Of a DNA stretch of 26,443 bases, positions 4,842-16,230 are shown in pieces (positions within the stretch are counted from its first letter, which is position 1; every line of letters begins with the position of its first letter). The notes beneath the pieces are model-generated. The model did not search any database. It was not told the origin of the DNA and saw only the letters and a list, made by a program, of their open reading frames with translations. The stretch is from a virus. The stretch spans positions 1-26,443 of IMG/VR virus record IMGVR_UViG_3300009285_001520. One strand, written 5' to 3'. The position numbers and the translations under genes were made by a program.

Positions 4842-5040
4842 GCTGTTGCGCGAATTCTTCGCGAGCAGCGAACTCACGCAGGCCGAGCTTGCGCGACTGA
4901 TCGGGGAATATCCCCAGACCATCAGCCACCTTCTCGCCGGGCGCAGGACGCCGACACTCGCCCAGGCGCTGGGCATCGAGAGGTATACGGGCGTGCCAGC
5001 GAGGGAGTGGTGTGATGCCTCGGTGACTATCTCCCGATAG
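4804..5040 (+). CDS. Cro/CI-type helix-turn-helix transcription regulator
   Basis: The 78-residue protein has an HTH of the XRE/Cro-CI type over about residues 12-62: LLREFF helix, then TQAELARLIGEYPQTISHLLAGRRTP with the usual scaffold (Gln26, Ala30, Ile33, Ser41, Leu44). ATG 4804 has AGAGG (4792-4796) 7 nt upstream, the best ribosome site in this part of the block. It has no dimerisation or peptidase domain, so it is Cro-like in size. It is the last gene of the early block and converges on the late block, overlapping the last late gene by 14 nt, so it is placed to influence the early-late switch. The DNA targets are not known. Confidence 0.82.
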   Translation: MWRMARKTPRGAKLLREFFASSELTQAELARLIGEYPQTISHLLAGRRTPTLAQALGIERYTGVPAREWCDASVTISR

Positions 5041-5278
5041 GCCCAACACCAACGCCCTTGCCTGACAGTCTGCGCTCGCGTGACTCGGTCGCCCACTGCT
5101 CATAACGTCCAAGCTCAGCACCACAGCGCGTGAGTCCGTAGTCGCAGGTATTGAGTCCCTGCTCACAAATCATCAAGCGCTCTGCAATTGGCCCGTAAGA
5201 ATGCTCTCGGCCAATAACCCAGCCGGTGAGCATGGCCAGCAACGCGATGATGGCCGCGGTGGTTCGGATGTCCACCAC
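5027..5278 (-). CDS. single-pass membrane protein, spanin (Rz)-like candidate
   Basis: The 83-residue product starts at GTG 5278 (or GTG 5275). It has one N-terminal membrane segment at about residues 7-22 (TAAIIALLAMLTGWVI), then a periplasm-type domain with three regularly spaced cysteines (ICEQ, TCDY, RCGAE) and charged helix. One N-terminal anchor plus a short helical ectodomain, last in a lysis cluster directly after the endolysin, is the layout of an inner-membrane spanin, which helps disrupt the outer membrane. No sequence-level Rz match can be claimed. The ribosome site is weak. The 3' end overlaps the convergent HTH gene by 14 nt. Confidence 0.6.
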   Translation of the reverse strand: MVDIRTTAAIIALLAMLTGWVIGREHSYGPIAERLMICEQGLNTCDYGLTRCGAELGRYEQWATESRERRLSGKGVGVGPIGR

Positions 5279-5304: not shown

Positions 5305-5910
5305 CTAAAACACCGCCCCCGCACCGCTCATTGTCGTCCATGCGTCGTCCTGAATCAGCGAAAACACACGCGCGCGCAGCTCGCCCATTGGCAGCTTGTC
5401 ACCAGGGCATACCTTGTCTGGGTCACTGGTCGAGTCAGGGGCCTCGGTGTGTCCGATCATGCATGGGTAGACAGCGCCATCAAATGTAACACTGTGCTTT
5501 GGACACAGCGACTGGACGAGCCATCGCAGCAACCATTCTCCGGCTGCCATCTGCGCGCCAGTGGGTGGCTCACGTGTAAAGTCACCAATCCAGGCCACGC
5601 CGACAGCGCGAAAATTCCACCTCTTACCATGCGGACTCACGTAGGATAGCGGCAACGCCTGCTCGATCTGGCCATCCGGCCTGATGAGGATCGAGTACGC
5701 CATCTTGCCGATATGTGTCCGCGGGTCGGTAAATGCCTTGGCTAAGCCCACCACGGACGGCTCGATTTGCAGGCCAAGGTTGCGGCCCATCTCCGATGGC
5801 TCGATCCTGTGAATCATTACCGTGTCGATATCCTGCTTTTGCCTGCGAGCGTATTGCGCGCCCGGCATCGCGGCCAGCACCTCGTCTATCCGGTTTCGGA
5901 TCGTCATCAA
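5305..5910 (-). CDS. N-acetylmuramoyl-L-alanine amidase endolysin (Amidase_2/PGRP type)
   Basis: The 201-residue enzyme would cut the amide bond between N-acetylmuramic acid and L-alanine in peptidoglycan at the end of infection. The zinc-binding residues of T7-lysozyme-like amidases are visible: His34 in TVMIHRIEPSE, His154 in IGHTEA, and Cys168 in DKVCPGDKLPM. The core strand SILIRPDGQIEQ also fits. There is no signal peptide or cell-wall-binding domain, so release through a holin is expected. ATG 5910 has GGGAG about 7 nt upstream. It lies between a DUF1353 gene and the spanin-like gene. The assignment is firm. Confidence 0.92.
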   Translation of the reverse strand: MMTIRNRIDEVLAAMPGAQYARRQKQDIDTVMIHRIEPSEMGRNLGLQIEPSVVGLAKAFTDPRTHIGKMAYSILIRPDGQIEQALPLSYVSPHGKRWNFRAVGVAWIGDFTREPPTGAQMAAGEWLLRWLVQSLCPKHSVTFDGAVYPCMIGHTEAPDSTSDPDKVCPGDKLPMGELRARVFSLIQDDAWTTMSGAGAVF

Positions 5911-5943: not shown

Positions 5944-6381
5944 TCACGGGGCACGCAGGGCCTTGACCTCTACCTCTGGTTGCGGCTTAGCGGCGTGGCT
6001 AGCAAACAAACGCAAACCCACATAGTCGAGCCAGCCTACCCATCTAAGCCATCGACGAGAATCCTGCGCCACCAGGTCGCGAAAAACCTGGTCCGAGTAT
6101 GCCCGCACCTCGGGATCGAGCTTGCCTGCTCGATGCAACTGGTAAAGGCCATCGTGGGCTAGCCCAGCGCGCATATTGCCCTTGCGATCAATCGCGGGGC
6201 CGCTCGCGCCATCCCAGCGATACAGTTTATGGATTGTGAGGCGCCCACGGTCATCGAGCTCGACAAACCCGTCAATCCGCGCAGCGCACCCATGGATGTC
6301 TGTGTCTACCCACCAGTCATCGAGGAGCTGATATCCACCCTCCTTGAGCCTGCGGTAAGAGATTGGACCGCTGGTCTTCAA
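5944..6381 (-). CDS. DUF1353 family protein
   Basis: The product contains the DUF1353 pattern: YRWDGASGPAIDRKGNMRAG, then LAHDGLYQLHRAG with the conserved His-Asp, and a C-terminal helical part. Phage members of this family are often encoded near lysis or tail genes; their activity is not established. I place the start at TTG 6381, because GGGAGG (6387-6392) lies 5 nt upstream and the TTG overlaps the upstream stop in TTGA, matching the operon's coupling. This gives 145 residues. An ATG at 6438 would add 19 residues, overlap the upstream gene by 61 nt, and lacks a properly spaced ribosome site. Confidence 0.75.
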   Translation of the reverse strand: MKTSGPISYRRLKEGGYQLLDDWWVDTDIHGCAARIDGFVELDDRGRLTIHKLYRWDGASGPAIDRKGNMRAGLAHDGLYQLHRAGKLDPEVRAYSDQVFRDLVAQDSRRWLRWVGWLDYVGLRLFASHAAKPQPEVEVKALRAP

Positions 6382-6821
6382 GGCTGCCTCCCAGCGATCA
6401 GGCCGAGCACAAATTTGATAACGGGACCATATGTCCATCCCTTTGGTCGTGCCTGCATCCTATCCACAAACGCCACCACCGCCCCACGGCTCAGGTGATG
6501 CGCGGCAACAGACCCACCACCACCACCGATGATCCCAGCAACAAACGCAGTTGCCAGAGGCATCAAGCCCCGAGTACCGGTCTCCACTGCAGCGAGAAAC
6601 GTACTGCCACCGCCGAGCACGAGCGGGATGGACCACTTGACCCAGGTGCTTTGCGAGTCAAAGCGGAGCCGCTCAGGCAGCGCATCGGCAAATCGCTGCC
6701 AGCGCCACAGGCGAATAGAGAGCATGACGCCGAGTGGTATCACGGCCAGCCACCCGGCCCTGGCCCATGCCGCCTGAAGCATGACCACTACCGCGTTTAT
6801 CTCTGGAGAAAGCTCGGCCAT
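6378..6821 (-). CDS. polytopic membrane protein, holin candidate
   Basis: The 147-residue protein has hydrophobic segments at about 22-39, 63-78 and 86-106 (LMPLATAFVAGIIGGGGGSVAA), with a weaker one near 133-143. Glycine-rich transmembrane helices, small size and location just upstream of DUF1353 and the endolysin make it the best holin candidate here, a protein that opens the inner membrane to let endolysin out. No holin family can be named from sequence. The ATG has AGAGGTGA upstream and overlaps the stop of a 30-residue membrane peptide (TAATG). Confidence 0.7.
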   Translation of the reverse strand: MAELSPEINAVVVMLQAAWARAGWLAVIPLGVMLSIRLWRWQRFADALPERLRFDSQSTWVKWSIPLVLGGGSTFLAAVETGTRGLMPLATAFVAGIIGGGGGSVAAHHLSRGAVVAFVDRMQARPKGWTYGPVIKFVLGLIAGRQP

Positions 6822-6913
6822 TAGTCACCTCTTTTTGCGGTCATGAAGAAACAAAACGCCACGAGCAGCAGGAACACGGTCAGCCATCCCAGCATGTAGA
6901 TGTGATCGATCAT
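6821..6913 (-). CDS. 30-residue single-span membrane peptide
   Basis: The frame runs from ATG 6913 to TAA 6821-6823. Almost all of the product is one hydrophobic helix (MLGWLTVFLLLVAFCFFM), with MIDHIY in front and TAKRGD behind. The ATG overlaps the upstream stop (ATGA) and its own stop overlaps the next ATG (TAATG), exactly filling the gap between two larger membrane proteins, which is strong evidence that it is translated. The size suits an accessory lysis peptide, a holin inhibitor or a pinholin-like peptide. The choice between these is open. Confidence 0.75.
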   Translation of the reverse strand: MIDHIYMLGWLTVFLLLVAFCFFMTAKRGD

Positions 6914-7269
6914 CGGCGCCCACGCTTAGGCTTCACTCCGATATTACTCATCAGCTCGTAGAGATTGATCTTGATATCCTCGGTGGCATTCGTAGTGCGC
7001 TCGATGTCCTTGCTCATACGCTCAACCTTTTCGTCAAGTCGGATCACTTGCTCACGCACGCCGTCTGTCTTCTCTCTCGGCTCGAAGTTGCTGAGGGCTG
7101 CCTGTACCACTGCCACATCGGCCTTGGTCGCCGCCTGCCATGGAGGCACACAAAAGCCTGTACCGAGCGCGAGCCCTACGAGTGTCACCGCCGTAGCGAC
7201 AATGCTTACCCAGGTGATACGCCTTCGGACCAGCCGACGAGTATCTGGAGCCGCTTCGATCCATGTCAC
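6910..7269 (-). CDS. membrane-anchored coiled-coil protein (spanin-like candidate)
   Basis: GTG 7269 is chosen as start because it overlaps the upstream stop (GTGA) and GGAG lies 5 nt upstream. The 119-residue product has a short basic N-terminus, one membrane helix at about 18-38 (ITWVSIVATAVTLVGLALGTG), then a charged heptad-like region (VIRLDEKVERMSKDIERT) at about 68-105 and a basic tail (KPKRGRR). An N-terminal anchor with a coiled-coil ectodomain is typical of inner-membrane spanins, and also occurs in phage membrane scaffolding proteins. It sits in a run of membrane genes before the endolysin. A spanin role competes with that of the 5027-5278 protein. Confidence 0.7.
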   Translation of the reverse strand: MTWIEAAPDTRRLVRRRITWVSIVATAVTLVGLALGTGFCVPPWQAATKADVAVVQAALSNFEPREKTDGVREQVIRLDEKVERMSKDIERTTNATEDIKINLYELMSNIGVKPKRGRR

Positions 7270-7946
7270 TGCAACTCCGCGTCTGCCCATAACTTTGCGG
7301 CATCCTCGGATTCGCTGCCCGCCCCCCTGCTCACCACGCATGGATACGGCTTGCTGCCTGCAACCGGTGAGCACGCGCCATCCGACTCAAGCCCAGGCCC
7401 ATCAATCCTCGTGGTGCGTGAATATCGACAGAGCGTGCCGTCAGCCTGCAGCCAGCAGTCGTGCAACGGCGCAATCATGTTACGACAGTTGGTGCCCGTG
7501 GTCAGCGCGAGACAGCTTGACACGAGCTGCCCGAATGAGCCGAACCATTTGACCGTCGTCGGATTGGCATCCGCGAACGCCTTGAGCCTCCCCGCTACCA
7601 GTGGGTGCGCCTCGATCTTGACCACCTGCCAGTTGTTCCCGCCCACCGAAACAAATGGCCCGAGGTCGAACTTGTACTGCACCGAACCCGTGCAGCCGCT
7701 CGGCGTGATGGAGCAGACACCAGCCGCACATGTGCCGAGCGTGTCGGGCAGTGTGGTGCCCTGGCGACGCGCAGTGTAAAAAACATGTTGCTCCTGGATG
7801 TCATTTGCCCGTGCTGCTGCAAGCGCCCACTGCGCGCAGTCAACGTCCTGCTCCTGCATCGCCTGCCACAGCGCAGCCGAGAAGGTGCCGCCGATGGCGA
7901 CGATGATCACCGCGCGGCGCCATACTAGTTTGAGCTTTTCGATCAT
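7266..7946 (-). CDS. exported or membrane-anchored cysteine-rich protein
   Basis: The ATG at 7946 overlaps the stop of the upstream gene (ATGA). The 226-residue product starts with a basic segment (MIEKLKLVWRR), then a hydrophobic stretch (AVIIVAIGGTFSAALWQA) that could be a signal peptide or an anchor. The remaining 195 residues contain about ten cysteines in spaced pairs (TCAAGVCS, SSCLAL, TNCRNM, HDCWLQ, TLCRYS), a layout suited to disulphides outside the cytoplasm. I do not recognise the domain. It follows the ConA-like exported protein and precedes the coiled-coil membrane protein, and its GTGA overlap couples it to the latter. Confidence 0.7.
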   Translation of the reverse strand: MIEKLKLVWRRAVIIVAIGGTFSAALWQAMQEQDVDCAQWALAAARANDIQEQHVFYTARRQGTTLPDTLGTCAAGVCSITPSGCTGSVQYKFDLGPFVSVGGNNWQVVKIEAHPLVAGRLKAFADANPTTVKWFGSFGQLVSSCLALTTGTNCRNMIAPLHDCWLQADGTLCRYSRTTRIDGPGLESDGACSPVAGSKPYPCVVSRGAGSESEDAAKLWADAELQ

Positions 7947-9913
7947 GGCCTTGTAATCTTCAGATCTCGCACACAAAACCCGCCGTCTATTGTATTCAGG
8001 TCTGAGTTTCTGTTGCCGATCCTTAATGTGTCCACAGATGTTGAGGTAGCAGCCGCCGTAGTGCCTACAGAGGCAGCCGCACCATCAACAGCCAGTGTCC
8101 ACCTGTCCGAATCGTAGTTGAGCGTTGTTCTGATATTCATCGGCGTACCTGGTGTGAATGTCTGAACTCCGGTAGTCGCCCCTACCGCCGCGCTGGTCCC
8201 TATGATCGATCTCAGTGTCTCAGTGGCCGTTATCTCAAGTGCAGCGCCTGAAACGTCACCGGCGCCGTCTGTGGCTATGTACCAGATCTTGCCTACGTTG
8301 ATGTAGTCAGACACAAATGGCGTGAACTCGACCTCTACAATGTACTCGCCGCTAAACAAATTGCCGGGCAAATACCTGGATGATTCTGCGGTTGAGTTGT
8401 CTGGTAGCCTGAAGAGATCCAGACCGCTCGTCACCGCCGCCGCCACGGTCGGAATGAATTGAGACGGCACCCACGTCTGCCCGGTGTACCATTGCGCAAG
8501 CAGCGCGGCATGACCAGTCGAGGCTGCCACACCGTCTGTTGGGTGTATGTAGATCCGCGCGTTGCTACACGCTGCATTACTCTCAGCCCAAGAGACACAG
8601 TCGCCATTTGGTGTGGTTGCATTGATTGCGAAATCGATTGTCTCTAGCAATGCGTCAGTGCAGCCCGTGATCTCCTCGATGTCGGCGTGGACGTTGCCGG
8701 TGCCGCTCTCTGCTTGACCAAAGACGCAGAGCACGCCGGTCGTTGCACCACCCTTGGCCACGGTCTGGTGGATGTACTCAGCACCCCCGGCATTATCGTC
8801 CGTGGCCTTATACATCTGCCTGCCATCGGCAAACATGCTTACGGTCGAAGTAGCAACGACGCTGGTCCCTACGGCAGTCCAGGTCGTGTTGAGTGTTGGC
8901 ACCTGTAGCAGTCGCTGTGTTGCGCTCGGTGTAGCGTGATAAGCGCAAGTAGTAGGGCCTCCTGCCCCGGTCAACCCCGGTGGCACCTCGCAGCCCTTGC
9001 GCGAGAAGTTGTCAGAGAAGCACTGAAGCGACCCAGCCACCCAACAGCAGGTGGGCCCGGTGTTGCTGAAAGTTGGAACGGTGCCTTTCTCCTCGTGCGT
9101 GCCCATGACCCAATCCGAGAACGAGGCGACCTGCGCAGCGCTGAGCACCGTGGTCTGCCAGTACAGGACAGCGGCGATGTCACCGATGATGCCGGTGCTG
9201 GCACCTTCGCCTGCATTGATGCGCATCCCGGTTGCCCCAGACGTGATGGTACCACCAGGGCTCGCCACTGCTGTCCCGGCTGTGCCGTTCTTGTAGGCGG
9301 TCGTGTTTCCGTCGTAGTCGTGGGTGCCGCACACCACCATCCACGAGCCGGCGCGCTCGTCGCCGGCAGGGCATAGGGCATTTGCAGACCCGGCGGCGGT
9401 GTTCTCAACGTAAAATCCGCAGCGTCCGGTGGAATTCCAGAGCTTCCACCCCTCCGCATCCGCATCATCCTGACTTGCGACCACGCCAGTAGTGGATGCT
9501 GTTGGAGCCATCCGGTAGATCGAGCACGCCGAGCAATCCCCTGTGCAGTCGGCGAGCGTGTTGGCGCCAGTCCAGACGGTGGCCGCCACGCCCCTGCGTG
9601 TGGCCATGCAGCCCTGCGAGAGATCGTCCCACCCACCATCGGCGCAGAGTGGCGAGTTTACTGCCGAGCTCGCGGTGCCCGACTCGGTGAATGCAGTTGT
9701 GCCATCTACGCTGTTGAGTGTTGGAGCTGAGCCCATCCAGGCGACGGTTGGAGTCGGGAAGTTTGCCGGGAGATCATTCCAGGCCGACATGCCATTGCGA
9801 GCGAGGGCGGCGTGGAAGACGACACGATCATCATTCGAGATTACTGATGAGCCGCCGAAATCGTCATCAACGATGAATTGGCCCAGAAGCAATGCGGCAA
9901 TCAATGCGCGCAT
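7943..9913 (-). CDS. large cysteine-rich protein with ConA-like/LamG-like domains, possibly exported
   Basis: The 656-residue protein begins with a short hydrophobic N-terminus (MRALIAALLLGQFIV) that may be a weak signal peptide; no clean cleavage site is visible. A first jelly-roll-like region covers about 60-275 and ends with LSAAQVASFSDWV, a familiar end of LamG/concanavalin-like domains in phage proteins. A cysteine-rich linker (about 288-325) follows. The last 150 residues form a second such domain (FSGEYIVEVEFTPF, then WTLAVDGAAASVG, CVRDLKITRP). There are 18 cysteines. Such domains bind sugars, so a role in adsorption or host-surface binding is plausible, either on the virion or on the host envelope. 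The upstream ribosome site is weak. It overlaps the next gene (ATGA). Confidence 0.78.
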   Translation of the reverse strand: MRALIAALLLGQFIVDDDFGGSSVISNDDRVVFHAALARNGMSAWNDLPANFPTPTVAWMGSAPTLNSVDGTTAFTESGTASSAVNSPLCADGGWDDLSQGCMATRRGVAATVWTGANTLADCTGDCSACSIYRMAPTASTTGVVASQDDADAEGWKLWNSTGRCGFYVENTAAGSANALCPAGDERAGSWMVVCGTHDYDGNTTAYKNGTAGTAVASPGGTITSGATGMRINAGEGASTGIIGDIAAVLYWQTTVLSAAQVASFSDWVMGTHEEKGTVPTFSNTGPTCCWVAGSLQCFSDNFSRKGCEVPPGLTGAGGPTTCAYHATPSATQRLLQVPTLNTTWTAVGTSVVATSTVSMFADGRQMYKATDDNAGGAEYIHQTVAKGGATTGVLCVFGQAESGTGNVHADIEEITGCTDALLETIDFAINATTPNGDCVSWAESNAACSNARIYIHPTDGVAASTGHAALLAQWYTGQTWVPSQFIPTVAAAVTSGLDLFRLPDNSTAESSRYLPGNLFSGEYIVEVEFTPFVSDYINVGKIWYIATDGAGDVSGAALEITATETLRSIIGTSAAVGATTGVQTFTPGTPMNIRTTLNYDSDRWTLAVDGAAASVGTTAAATSTSVDTLRIGNRNSDLNTIDGGFCVRDLKITRP

Positions 9914-9922
9914 GGCCGAATC

Positions 9923-10354
9923 TTACTCTGCTTCGTGGAGGTAGCAAGCGCCGTTGACAGCAACACTCAGGCACGACACGTGGGTCGCGTTAATGGCGCT
10001 CGTGGAGAAGCGAAAATACTTTCCAGCCAACAGCTTGAAATCATCGGCGAGCGCAGTGGTGGCAGCCGTACCCCAATCAACCCATGCGTCTGATTCGCAG
10101 CGCATGATGTAGGTCGTATTCTGCACCAATGCCCCGGAGTCAGCATCGGCACCAGTTGTGCACGCAAGCTTGGTGGGTGCACCAGTTTTCATGAATGGGG
10201 CACGCGTGCGCATTCCGCTCTCGTTCACGGCAGTCGTGATCATGTCTGCGTAGATCGGACCCGACAGAAGAACCAGGAGTGCCGAGAAAAATCCGCCTAC
10301 CCACAAAAGCAGAGACCTCATTGGCCTTGCGATTGGTACGAGATCTCTCTGCAT
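9923..10354 (-). CDS. small exported protein with signal peptide
   Basis: The 143-residue product has a basic start, a hydrophobic core (LLLWVGGFFSALLVLLSG) and a likely signal peptidase site after PIYA at about residue 36, so a mature protein of roughly 107 residues. The mature part is beta-like with four cysteines (KLACTT, MRCESDAW, HVSCLSV, GACYLHE) and could be disulphide bonded. ATG 10354 has GGAGGAG upstream and directly follows the lipoprotein gene stop; an in-frame ATG at 10321 would still keep the signal peptide. Located inside the exported-protein cassette. Its family is not recognised. Confidence 0.75.
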   Translation of the reverse strand: MQRDLVPIARPMRSLLLWVGGFFSALLVLLSGPIYADMITTAVNESGMRTRAPFMKTGAPTKLACTTGADADSGALVQNTTYIMRCESDAWVDWGTAATTALADDFKLLAGKYFRFSTSAINATHVSCLSVAVNGACYLHEAE

Positions 10355-10552
10355 TTACTCCTCCGTCACTACCGGACAAGGCCCCTCGGTGATGAGTAGG
10401 TGGGCCTCACCGGATGTCTGGGCCTGCATGGCGTCGAGATACGTGGCGCAATGCAATTGTCCTCGATAGCTGAACTCCATTCGTGGGGCGCGCGTGCCGG
10501 TTGAGGCGCACCCAGCCACGAGCATCAAGGCCATGGCGATCAGAGGTCTCAT
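10355..10552 (-). CDS. small phage-encoded lipoprotein
   Basis: The ATG at 10552 overlaps the upstream stop (TGATG). The 65-residue product opens with a compact lipoprotein signal, MRPLIAMALMLVAGCAS: the lipobox LVAGC puts the lipidated cysteine at residue 15. Residue +2 is Ala, which in enteric bacteria sends the protein to the outer membrane. The mature part is about 50 residues with two more cysteines (LHCATY, GPCPVV). Possible roles are an outer-membrane spanin subunit or a superinfection-exclusion lipoprotein; its place away from the endolysin and within the exported cassette leans to the second. Neither is shown. Confidence 0.75.
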   Translation of the reverse strand: MRPLIAMALMLVAGCASTGTRAPRMEFSYRGQLHCATYLDAMQAQTSGEAHLLITEGPCPVVTEE

Positions 10553-11520
10553 CAGAACGTCACATAGACAAGGCATTCGAAGTCATCGCCGGCATCATCG
10601 CAGGCATCGTCGGTCCCGGTGAACTTGATTGCCACAGCGCTACCTGCCGACACTGTTTCTGGTGCCTGCAGACGGACAGCGCATTGCTGTGGGACACCAT
10701 CACCAGTCCACGCCGGAGCAGCACACGTTAGCCCGGCCACGTCCGAGGTGTCCTCGCGCATTTGATAGGTGATCACATCATTTGCAGCGCTTGCCCCGGT
10801 GCAGGCGCCCACGCAAACCATTGCCACCGGCTTGAACGCAAAGGCTGCATGCCAAGGTGCATCAGCGGTTCCCTCAACGGCATTGTCCAGGCCATCACAG
10901 CCAGCCCCACCAAACGCCAGGTCGGCCTCTGTGTCATCGAGCAGGACTGGACCCATGTACTCGGCAGCACCGGTTGCAGAGCCATTACCGCAAAATCGGA
11001 TTACCTCGAGCGCCAGCGCCGGTATGGCTATGTCTACCCCCTCGTCGAAGATGGCCTCACCGACATCGACGTGAAACGCATCGGTAGCAGTGGTGCCGGT
11101 TATGACCACAGTCTCGGCGTCGTTCCCGGTGTCGATGGTGATCAGATTGAGTTGATCGGTTGACCCTATCAGCAACGCAGTGGTGTCGTTGTCGTCCACT
11201 ACAACCGATGATGCGCTGCCGCTGAACGTCAGCGCACCGGCGCCACCCGCACAGGTTAAATCACCCGTCTGTGTAGTGGCCCCGGTAAGGGTTGAGGTTC
11301 CGGCCACGTTGAGATTGCCATCGGACTCGAGGTCACCCTCGACATACAGCTCGCCGGCAGCGGTTGCCACGGACGGGGTGGTGAAGTCAGAATCGGCGAA
11401 GATTCGTAACAAGCTGATGACATTCGAAGTCCCGCCGACGTAGGCCATCACAGACAACGGGATGATCACCACGAGGAATATGGTAGTCGCGATTGCGTAG
11501 AATTTGTTGCGTCGAAACAT
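10552..11520 (-). CDS. exported or anchored fibre-like protein
   Basis: The 322-residue protein starts at ATG 11520, with AAGGAG 6 nt upstream. An earlier in-frame start near 11571 would translate through a hairpin and is disfavoured. The N-terminus is a Sec-type signal or anchor: MFRRNKFYAIATT, hydrophobic core IFLVVIIPLSVMA, possible cleavage after VMA. Residues about 50-130 hold short repeats of the type GDLESDGNLNVAGTST and TGATTQTGDLTCAGG, like the tandem beta strands of trimeric tail fibres. The last 160 residues are a cysteine-rich globular domain. Fibre-like content with an export signal is the unusual point. It is the first gene after the capsid gene hairpin. Confidence 0.72.
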   Translation of the reverse strand: MFRRNKFYAIATTIFLVVIIPLSVMAYVGGTSNVISLLRIFADSDFTTPSVATAAGELYVEGDLESDGNLNVAGTSTLTGATTQTGDLTCAGGAGALTFSGSASSVVVDDNDTTALLIGSTDQLNLITIDTGNDAETVVITGTTATDAFHVDVGEAIFDEGVDIAIPALALEVIRFCGNGSATGAAEYMGPVLLDDTEADLAFGGAGCDGLDNAVEGTADAPWHAAFAFKPVAMVCVGACTGASAANDVITYQMREDTSDVAGLTCAAPAWTGDGVPQQCAVRLQAPETVSAGSAVAIKFTGTDDACDDAGDDFECLVYVTF

Positions 11521-11538
11521 GGTGCTCCTTCGACAATA

Positions 11539-11568
11539 GCCGCGCCACCATGAGGGAGATGGCGCGGC
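11539..11568 (-). terminator. terminator-like hairpin after the major capsid gene
   Basis: A perfect 9-bp GC-rich stem (GCCGCGCCA pairing with TGGCGCGGC, 11539-11547 with 11560-11568) encloses a 12-nt loop. It starts 22 nt past the capsid stop on the - strand. The bases that follow on the - strand are CTATTGT and then TATTGTCG-like sequence, so the U-run is weak. It may act as a partial terminator that lowers expression of the exported cassette, or as a stabilising 3' end for capsid mRNA. Confidence 0.5.
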
Positions 11569-11589
11569 CATGTCAGAAAACCAAGATGA

Positions 11590-12492
11590 TTACGTTACGC
11601 TGTGACCTATGATCCACCGCCAGTCGGTGCAACCATGGCTCTCTCGGTAGTAGCCACCAATCTTCCTGGTGCCAGTATCAAGATTGCCGTCACCGAAGAT
11701 CTCCAGCGCCGCAGACTGGTACCAGCGCAGGTAGCGTGCACGTAGCCGACTGTCCATCATGAACCAGTCGCTTGCATCGGTCAGCAATGGCGACACAAAA
11801 AGAGAATATCGGCCAGCGTAGAAGTTGCTGCGGAGATTCGTCGAATCAGGGCGCATGGCCGACCGCACGGTCTCCCAGGCATCCTCTTCGAGGTCTACTG
11901 GCACCATCAACTCATCAGGATTGACCGACAACTTCAACCCGTCGTAGTTGGTGAACTTTCTCATCGCAACATGTGCTGCCTTGATGGCCGCCATCGAAAA
12001 CGCGGCAGTCAACAGGTTGTCCTGTGAGTTGCCACTATCTGCGTTGACGTGCGCGTTGTTGCAGATCGAAAGACCATCCTCTGACGTATACGTTGCACCA
12101 GTCACTGCATCGCGAAACAACGCAATTCCATCATCCTCGACCGTATACGCGGCAGCGGTCCCGAGCTCAACGCCGAGGTCTTGGAGAAATCCCCATTCCT
12201 CGAAGTCGACCACCATCCGCGAAACCGGTAGCATCAACGCAAACTCCGATTGCACGAATGTCTTCTGGAATTGCTGAGTGACCGTCGCCTCGCTGGCAGA
12301 GGCGGTTTCAGACTTTGCCTGAAACTTACCCAAGCCACCGAAGGACGAGGACCGATCACGGCGATTCCCTGTCCCCTGCATATTGTAAAGCAGTGGGACC
12401 AAGAACGGGCCCTCAAAATACTTTTCAATCGCAATCGCCGAGGTGACCTCGTCGAAGAGATAACTAAGTGTTCCTGTGGTTGCAGTTGCCAT
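11590..12492 (-). CDS. major capsid protein (HK97-fold, Mu gpT-like)
   Basis: The 300-residue protein forms the head shell. Family-like features are an N-terminal arm rich in Ser/Ala (about 40-70), the segment FALMLPVSRMVVDFEEWG, a peripheral helix region KAAHVAMRKFTNYDGLKL near 171-188, and a C-terminal half with YSLFVSPLLTDASDWFM and GGYYRESHGCTDWRW. This pattern resembles the Mu gpT-like branch of HK97-fold major heads. It sits directly downstream of a likely decoration protein and a scaffold candidate further up, as expected for a head module. A terminator-like hairpin follows. No N-terminal delta domain or protease gene is seen, in keeping with a separate scaffold protein. Confidence 0.85.
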   Translation of the reverse strand: MATATTGTLSYLFDEVTSAIAIEKYFEGPFLVPLLYNMQGTGNRRDRSSSFGGLGKFQAKSETASASEATVTQQFQKTFVQSEFALMLPVSRMVVDFEEWGFLQDLGVELGTAAAYTVEDDGIALFRDAVTGATYTSEDGLSICNNAHVNADSGNSQDNLLTAAFSMAAIKAAHVAMRKFTNYDGLKLSVNPDELMVPVDLEEDAWETVRSAMRPDSTNLRSNFYAGRYSLFVSPLLTDASDWFMMDSRLRARYLRWYQSAALEIFGDGNLDTGTRKIGGYYRESHGCTDWRWIIGHSVT

Positions 12493-15500: not shown

Positions 15501-16230
15501 CTGCTCTCACCTTTCCGAGTTGTCTTAGTATGCTTGCGCCTTCATCCGTTTCAAGTGCTTTCGCTACAGCGTCTCGCGCCCGATCAATATCGGCTTGGGC
15601 GATAGCCCGTTGCGTATGTCCGGCCCCCTTGATCTTTTCTCGGACAATAGGGTCTACCCACTGCTTGCGTGCCCCGGCCTCGGTAGGGTCAACGATCTCC
15701 ATCATCTCGGCCGGGATGAGCGAGCAATGGCATGTACTTGTCCACCCGCTATGTATGGTGTCTGGGTGCAGTCCACTTGATAGCCAGTCTGCGTAGCTCT
15801 GCGTTTTGCCATGCAACGGGAGGCACTGGTAACACGTGTTGATGAGGGTGGCAACCCAGGTGTAATTGAGCCTGTCGGCGAGATCTGATTCTACCTTCTC
15901 AAGGGCTTCGGGATCTGCCTCGTCGAGCTCGAGCCCAAACTCACTGCGACCTAAAAACCGCTGCAAATCCTCTCTCACCGACGCCGTACCAACGATATCC
16001 CCCTGACGCTCGGCGGCCATCACTGACGATTCTGCGGCACCAGTGAGTGACCGCAAAAACTTCCCAAAGATGGGTCCGTCTTTTTCGAGGTCATCGAGCA
16101 TGAGCTGCTCGATACGATCAATCGGTACTCCTTGACTAGCCAGCTGATCGATCATCGTCTCCATGTCGATGGCGCTCTGGCGCACTGCGCGGTCAGCGAA
16201 GCGTGAGTAGATTTGGGCGTAGTTTGGCAT
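15487..16230 (-). CDS. MuF-like minor head protein
   Basis: The 247-residue protein has the C-terminal pattern of Mu gpF / SPP1 gp7-type minor head proteins: TWVATLINTCYQCLPLHG (C133, C136, His140), an intervening segment ending HPDTIHSG, and CHCSLIP (C167, H168, C169). These proteins sit at the portal side of the capsid and are thought to help assembly or DNA injection. At 247 residues it is on the short side, with a helical N-terminal half. Usually it lies directly after the portal gene, but here the upstream gene is a tail accessory protein and no portal is in the window. Its ATG overlaps the upstream stop (TGATG). Confidence 0.75.
   Translation of the reverse strand: MPNYAQIYSRFADRAVRQSAIDMETMIDQLASQGVPIDRIEQLMLDDLEKDGPIFGKFLRSLTGAAESSVMAAERQGDIVGTASVREDLQRFLGRSEFGLELDEADPEALEKVESDLADRLNYTWVATLINTCYQCLPLHGKTQSYADWLSSGLHPDTIHSGWTSTCHCSLIPAEMMEIVDPTEAGARKQWVDPIVREKIKGAGHTQRAIAQADIDRARDAVAKALETDEGASILRQLGKVRADEGD

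Follow-up and report, generated by a model that had tools for sequence, protein, structure and literature searches.

A late phage gene run between capsid and lysis genes encodes predicted exported, cysteine-rich proteins

Introduction

Why would a tailed phage place a series of apparently exported proteins between its capsid and lysis genes? Phage modification of the host envelope is known mostly from single small exported proteins, each the work of one gene, in a few E. coli phages. The DNA analysed here is a linear IMG/VR virus fragment of 26,443 bases (hereafter the window, meaning the whole stretch). An earlier note, made from the sequence alone, described six consecutive late products in it as exported or membrane-anchored and cysteine-rich, and proposed that they may dress or modify the host envelope late in infection. 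Here we examine the locus, its products and the explanations that might account for them.

Genomic context of the run

Early genes occupy the left part of the window on the plus strand and late genes run from the right end on the minus strand, the two sets meeting near 5,030. The late order begins with tail genes (25941 to 16230). After these come a head-morphogenesis-like gene, a pair of zinc-ribbon-type genes, then a scaffold-like gene with two small genes behind it, and a possible decoration gene upstream of the capsid gene. The run under study follows, and beyond it lie a holin-like gene, a gene for a 164-aa protein, an Amidase_2 endolysin gene and a spanin-like gene. Several tail and head genes are named here by position. 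In the late operon (25941-11590, minus strand), the head genes appear to come after the tail genes, the opposite of the usual siphophage order, and three small proteins encoded among the head genes (15500-14620 and 13720-13463, minus strand) carry paired, zinc-ribbon-like CxxC motifs. No terminase or portal gene was found in the 26,443-base fragment; these genes presumably lie outside it. Comparison of the window proteins with each other revealed no paralogy. The run, its borders and the lysis genes comprise the following features (slashes mark cleavage sites):

11590..12492, minus strand: major capsid protein of Mu gpT / Phage_capsid_4 type, bordering the run on its upstream side (Pfam PF25209, E 1.9e-9; PF10124, E 7.9e-7; PHROG head families)
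11520..11583, minus strand: strong hairpin, rich in G and C, that separates the capsid gene from the run; its core stem spans 11570-11537 (RNA fold -37.9 kcal/mol, z -5.7)
10552..11520, minus strand: 322-aa fibre-like protein, 9 Cys, ATAAGELYVEGDLE motif; predicted SPase I Sec signal ...PLSVMA/YVGG, cleavage after residue 26
10355..10552, minus strand: 65-aa predicted lipoprotein of Cor/Llp-like anatomy; lipobox LVAG/C at residue 15, two further Cys (35 and 59)
9923..10354, minus strand: 143-aa protein with a small mature domain, 4 Cys; predicted SPase I Sec signal ...GPIYA/DM; weak phrog_22789 match (E 0.09)
7943..9913, minus strand: 656-aa lectin-like protein, 18 Cys; one Laminin_G_3-type domain (residues about 125-263); phrog_4390, E 0.008
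7266..7946, minus strand: 226-aa protein, 10 Cys without CxxC; predicted N-terminal SPase I signal or anchor
6910..7269, minus strand: 119-aa anchored coiled-coil protein, 1 Cys; phrog_736 (unknown function), E 1.9e-4, and a weaker holin family match
6821..6913, minus strand: membrane peptide of 30 aa with a single span, MIDHIYMLGWLTVFLLLVAFCFFMTAKRGD; coupled to both neighbours (ATGA and TAATG)
6378..6821, minus strand: holin-like multi-span membrane protein with a hydrophobic N-terminal segment, downstream border of the run; no family match
5305..5907, minus strand: endolysin, Amidase_2 (Pfam PF01510, E 2.9e-14)
5027..5278, minus strand: inner-membrane spanin-like protein, assigned from its position and N-terminal anchor alone

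The earlier note placed six ORFs on the minus strand from 11520 to 6910, and these coordinates are correct. Its description of one coupled late programme is supported: the junctions are TGATG at 10552, TAAATG at 10354, a 9-nt gap at 9913, ATGA at 7946 and GTGA at 7269. The additional 30-aa ORF (6913-6821, minus strand), coupled on both sides, completes an unbroken chain into the holin-like gene (6821-6378), such that translation is coupled or nearly so from 11520 to 6378. This ORF lies below the usual size limit for ORFs, and was hence missed. No convincing candidate for a separate promoter of the run genes was found in the window. The hairpin probably keeps the run expressed at a lower level than the capsid; its extended fold (11583-11520) overlies the Shine-Dalgarno site of the gene that opens the run, encoding the 322-aa product, and stem-loops or terminators are annotated straight after the capsid genes in the N15 and T1 records too.

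Export signals and cysteine content

Export signals were called with a simple rule-based classifier, not SignalP, which looks for a charged start, an uncharged hydrophobic core, and a cleavage site or lipobox. Of known proteins, the classifier caught DsbA, OmpA and Lpp, missed MalE, and rejected EF-Tu and RecA. In five reference phages it recovered Lom, Bor, Rz and Rz1 of lambda and Cor of N15, HK022 and T1; its sole flag beyond lysis, moron and exclusion genes was one T1 gene after the capsid. The flags that it sets within the window fall on the run, on the anchored 119-aa product and on the spanin-like gene; the 17 tail and head genes upstream receive none. Near related capsid genes in approximately 78 other phages, flags fell on 0 of 492 upstream genes and 6 of 465 downstream genes, and most of these six look unconvincing. 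At the background rate, the chance of at least four of the five run genes being flagged would be about 1e-8 to 1e-7, a figure that serves as a guide only, as genes are not independent draws.

Every late-strand product from the capsid to the holin-like gene possesses a hydrophobic N-terminal export or anchor segment, weak in the 656-aa product, whereas the 17 tail and head proteins upstream start without one. The earlier claim of export signals across six products holds in large part. Four are strong or fair: the SPase I-type signal of the product at 11520 (previously given as a Sec signal or anchor), the LVAG/C lipobox at 10552, the GPIYA/D cleavage site at 10354, and the signal or anchor of the ten-cysteine product at 7946. 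The product at 6910 is anchor-like. The exception is the 656-aa product, whose N-terminus (MRALIAALLLGQFIVDDDF) comprises 13 hydrophobic residues and then DDD, with no cleavage site; its export is thus uncertain.

The products contain 9, 3, 4, 18, 10 and 1 cysteines, in run order from 11520 to 6910. Cysteine makes up 44 of 1294 mature residues in the five large products (3.4%) versus 24 of 4078 in upstream structural proteins without zinc-type motifs (0.6%; Fisher p 1e-12), and the run contains only one zinc-type CxxC pair. The run is cysteine-rich as claimed, save for the single-cysteine product at 6910. Three mature products have even cysteine counts (4, 18 and 10), and the lipoprotein has two besides its lipid cysteine. 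This pattern is as expected for proteins that would make disulphides after export. Overall, the anatomy of the signals against a near-zero background, the enrichment in non-zinc cysteines and the occurrence of the 322-aa motif mostly in Sec-exported proteins (see below) lead us to predict with considerable confidence that most of the run's products are exported.

Products of the run and their relatives

The whole run has no homologous set in any collection searched. Against phages, tblastn with the run products tested and the 939-aa tail protein returned nothing significant, the 656-aa, 226-aa and tail proteins had no relatives in scans of IMG/VR viral contigs, and nothing meaningful matched the run products in PADLOC or NCBIfam. 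Omnitrophota were considered as hosts and rejected: a search of 285 genomes with the tail protein yielded one spurious match, in housekeeping genes. For the 322-aa and 656-aa products, alignment-free AlphaFold modelling gave unusable structures (mean pLDDT 34.5 and 31.5, respectively).

The stretch PSVATAAGELYVEGDLESDGNLNVAGT lies within residues 48-79 of the 322-aa product. IMG/VR viral contig scans with the motif of this product returned nothing besides L003 and L004, and its presence was confirmed in one further contig only, L004 (IMGVR_UViG_3300035698_003421). This contig is a phage with a terminase, a portal, a scaffold-like gene and a related capsid, in which the motif protein, a fibre protein, is encoded six genes after the capsid and has a textbook signal peptide by the classifier. 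The two phages are thus alike in signal peptide, ATAAGELYVEGD motif and gene position downstream of a gpT-like capsid gene, but the L004 contig shows a single exported product before it ends, with a beta-helix-like look and fewer cysteines (1.2%). Four giant proteins in the bacterial genome collection contain the motif, from Patescibacteria (L009, L010) and Omnitrophota (L011, L012), with as many as five copies in one protein. Sec signals are clear in three of the four, and the remaining protein probably has one too, further in. Unlike the 322-aa product, these proteins are bacterial, 1300-1800 aa long and outside a phage context. The repeat ATAAGELYVEGDLEVDG, present in one to five copies in these mostly Sec-signal-bearing proteins, is possibly an unnamed surface-protein repeat. 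A protein from the tail region of a Halobacillus prophage also matches, more weakly, and has no signal; the motif by itself is therefore no proof of export.

The 656-aa product was said to have ConA-like domains and 18 cysteines. The cysteine count stands, and one domain, Laminin_G_3 (PF13385), approaches significance (E 5.4e-6; 27.1 bits, or 27.5 for the domain alone, against a gathering score of 27.6); the others lack statistical support. For the 226-aa product, neither tblastn against phages nor the viral contig scan detected a homologue. The 119-aa product, counted as a member of the set by the earlier note, is anchor-like, but its single cysteine and weak holin match fit the lysis side better, and it is probably a lysis accessory rather than a member of the export set. 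The 30-aa peptide at 6913-6821 probably belongs to the lysis set as well.

Comparison with known exported phage proteins

The 65-aa product is the sole lipoprotein-type ORF of the window when both strands are searched. In size and anatomy it resembles the exclusion proteins Cor and Llp (of T1, N15, HK022 and T5): across these and the window product, lengths are 65-78 aa, with a lipobox cysteine at residues 15-17 and two further cysteines, and the Cor controls alone measure 75-78 aa with the cysteine at 17. The small size and lipobox expected of a Cor/Llp protein are therefore both present. Similarity is another matter. Local alignments with known Cor proteins were no better than shuffles (shuffle p 0.06-0.93), whereas Cor proteins align clearly with one another in the same comparison, and tblastn against phages gave a best E of about 9. 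A 59-aa secreted-type ORF straight after a related capsid (L044:3784-4014, plus strand) was rejected as a relative of the lipoprotein (shuffle p 0.38); its last two cysteines are spaced as in the window lipoprotein (EGxC ending), a likeness that is not significant.

Known exclusion lipoprotein genes usually adjoin the receptor-binding gene. The window gene shares with them a site in the late structural region, but follows the capsid and 322-aa genes rather than a receptor-binding or tail-tip gene; the tail genes end at 16230, and it lies about 5 kb from the receptor-binding gene region. Cor and Llp are exported to the outer membrane, as is predicted of the window product, which differs from them in being accompanied by large, putatively exported lectin-like and fibre-like products. 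An Rz1-type outer-membrane spanin is likewise a small lipoprotein, but the window product is neither proline-rich nor encoded within or next to the spanin-like gene (about 5 kb away). Llp, which binds FhuA on its periplasmic side, has an intramolecular disulphide in common with Cor (PMC9586334). In the mEpimmI phages, such lipoprotein genes sit in the structural cluster and phages are excluded upon their expression (PMC11893012). The window lipoprotein may work like Cor by this analogy, without being identified as Cor.

Lambda Lom and Bor are likewise exported, come from genes inside or next to the late region and are caught by the same classifier, but they are single genes, annotated as an outer-membrane protein (Lom) and a serum-resistance protein (Bor), and are not lectin-like. 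In N15 and T1, the neighbours of Cor form a short late-region run annotated as outer-membrane or membrane-associated proteins; unlike the products here, they show no signal by the same classifier. Exported late-region proteins have been described before (T5 Llp, lambda Lom, and the Cor proteins of T1, N15 and HK022), and the earlier suggestion of an undescribed system was too strong. What sets this run apart is how many products it has and that large lectin-like and fibre-like ones are among them.

Candidate functions of the run

The explanation we favour is that the run at 11520-7266 is a module for modifying the envelope, expressed late and analogous, on a larger scale, to the one-gene Cor/Lom-type cases; to this we would give slightly less than an even chance. 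The host Sec and Lsp machinery would take the products to the periplasm and outer membrane, where their cysteines would pair as disulphides in an oxidising compartment and the exported set would change the infected cell's surface. The Cor/Llp-like lipoprotein would disable the phage's own receptor from within, and the lectin-like and fibre-like products would bind or cover surface glycans. Superinfection would thereby be blocked late in the cycle and released progeny kept off the debris of lysed cells, with the 119-aa and 30-aa products probably acting in lysis, outside the module. Of the envelope-export reading in the earlier note, the predicted export of most products and the single coupled programme stand, while its purpose is argued by analogy alone. 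The analogy for masking, adhesion or superinfection exclusion comprises the Cor/Llp anatomy and the lipoprotein genes of phage structural clusters, and makes such a host-surface role plausible at somewhat under even probability. Several features count against envelope modification: no homologous set turned up in the collections searched, the signal of the 656-aa product is weak, the 322-aa motif has a weak match in the signal-less Halobacillus prophage protein, ConA-like domains are common in phage tail fibres as well, and the lipoprotein gene, unlike what is usual for known exclusion lipoproteins, lies about 5 kb from the receptor-binding gene.

The large products might instead sit on the particle as virion fibres or decorations, held by uncleaved N-terminal anchors or folded in the periplasm and bound at lysis. 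Their genes come straight after that of the capsid, virions typically contain lectin-like and fibre-like proteins, and L004, another phage, is arranged alike. However, tailed virions assemble in the cytoplasm, and canonical cleavage sites, a lipobox and a cysteine content far above that of this phage's other structural proteins are difficult to reconcile with such a fate, as is the near-absence of such signals in capsid-related phages; we regard it as unlikely. The literature searched for exported virion-type proteins in tailed phages yielded no direct precedent. A two-compartment form of virion assembly, in which disulphide-bonded fibres and lectins would be exported, folded in the periplasm and joined to capsids when lysis mixes the compartments, appears very unlikely. 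Cargo for lysogenic conversion, i.e. exported adhesins or surface proteins of benefit to the lysogen, would have parallels in the exported Lom and Bor in or beside the lambda late region, and the 322-aa motif is common to giant exported bacterial proteins. We nonetheless find this distinctly unlikely given that the coupled late chain includes the run, for which no convincing separate promoter was found, that no integrase is seen in the 26,443-base fragment, and that its codon use is like that of the rest of the phage (r 0.89).

That codon use, together with a third-position GC matching that of the structural genes, also argues against a chimeric contig carrying an inserted bacterial secreted-protein operon. 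The closest relatives of the 322-aa motif are indeed mostly bacterial, but the run lies on the same strand with its genes coupled, codon use and GC fit both flanks, the lectin-like family is common in phages and the motif is present in a second phage (L004), leaving such an artefact next to no probability. An enlarged lysis cassette would make the lipoprotein the outer-membrane spanin partner of the product at 5278-5027, with the other exported products helping to disrupt the envelope. The lipoprotein being the only such ORF in the window, the continuation of the chain into the holin-like gene and a weak spanin-family match (E 0.12) are consistent with this, yet about 5 kb separate the lipoprotein gene from the spanin-like gene, and the lipoprotein lacks a proline-rich stretch. 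Moreover, we know of no lysis role for lectin-like or fibre-like proteins, and consider this arrangement at least as improbable as conversion cargo.

If the envelope-modification reading is correct, a single coupled late block would supply about five cysteine-rich products predicted to be exported, lectin-like and fibre-like ones included, and some phages would devote late expression to reworking the surface of a cell that is about to lyse. If instead part of the virion is matured in the periplasm, a tailed phage would carry proteins matured outside the cytoplasm. In either case, the contrast in signal peptides and cysteine content offers a simple rule by which further such blocks may be found.
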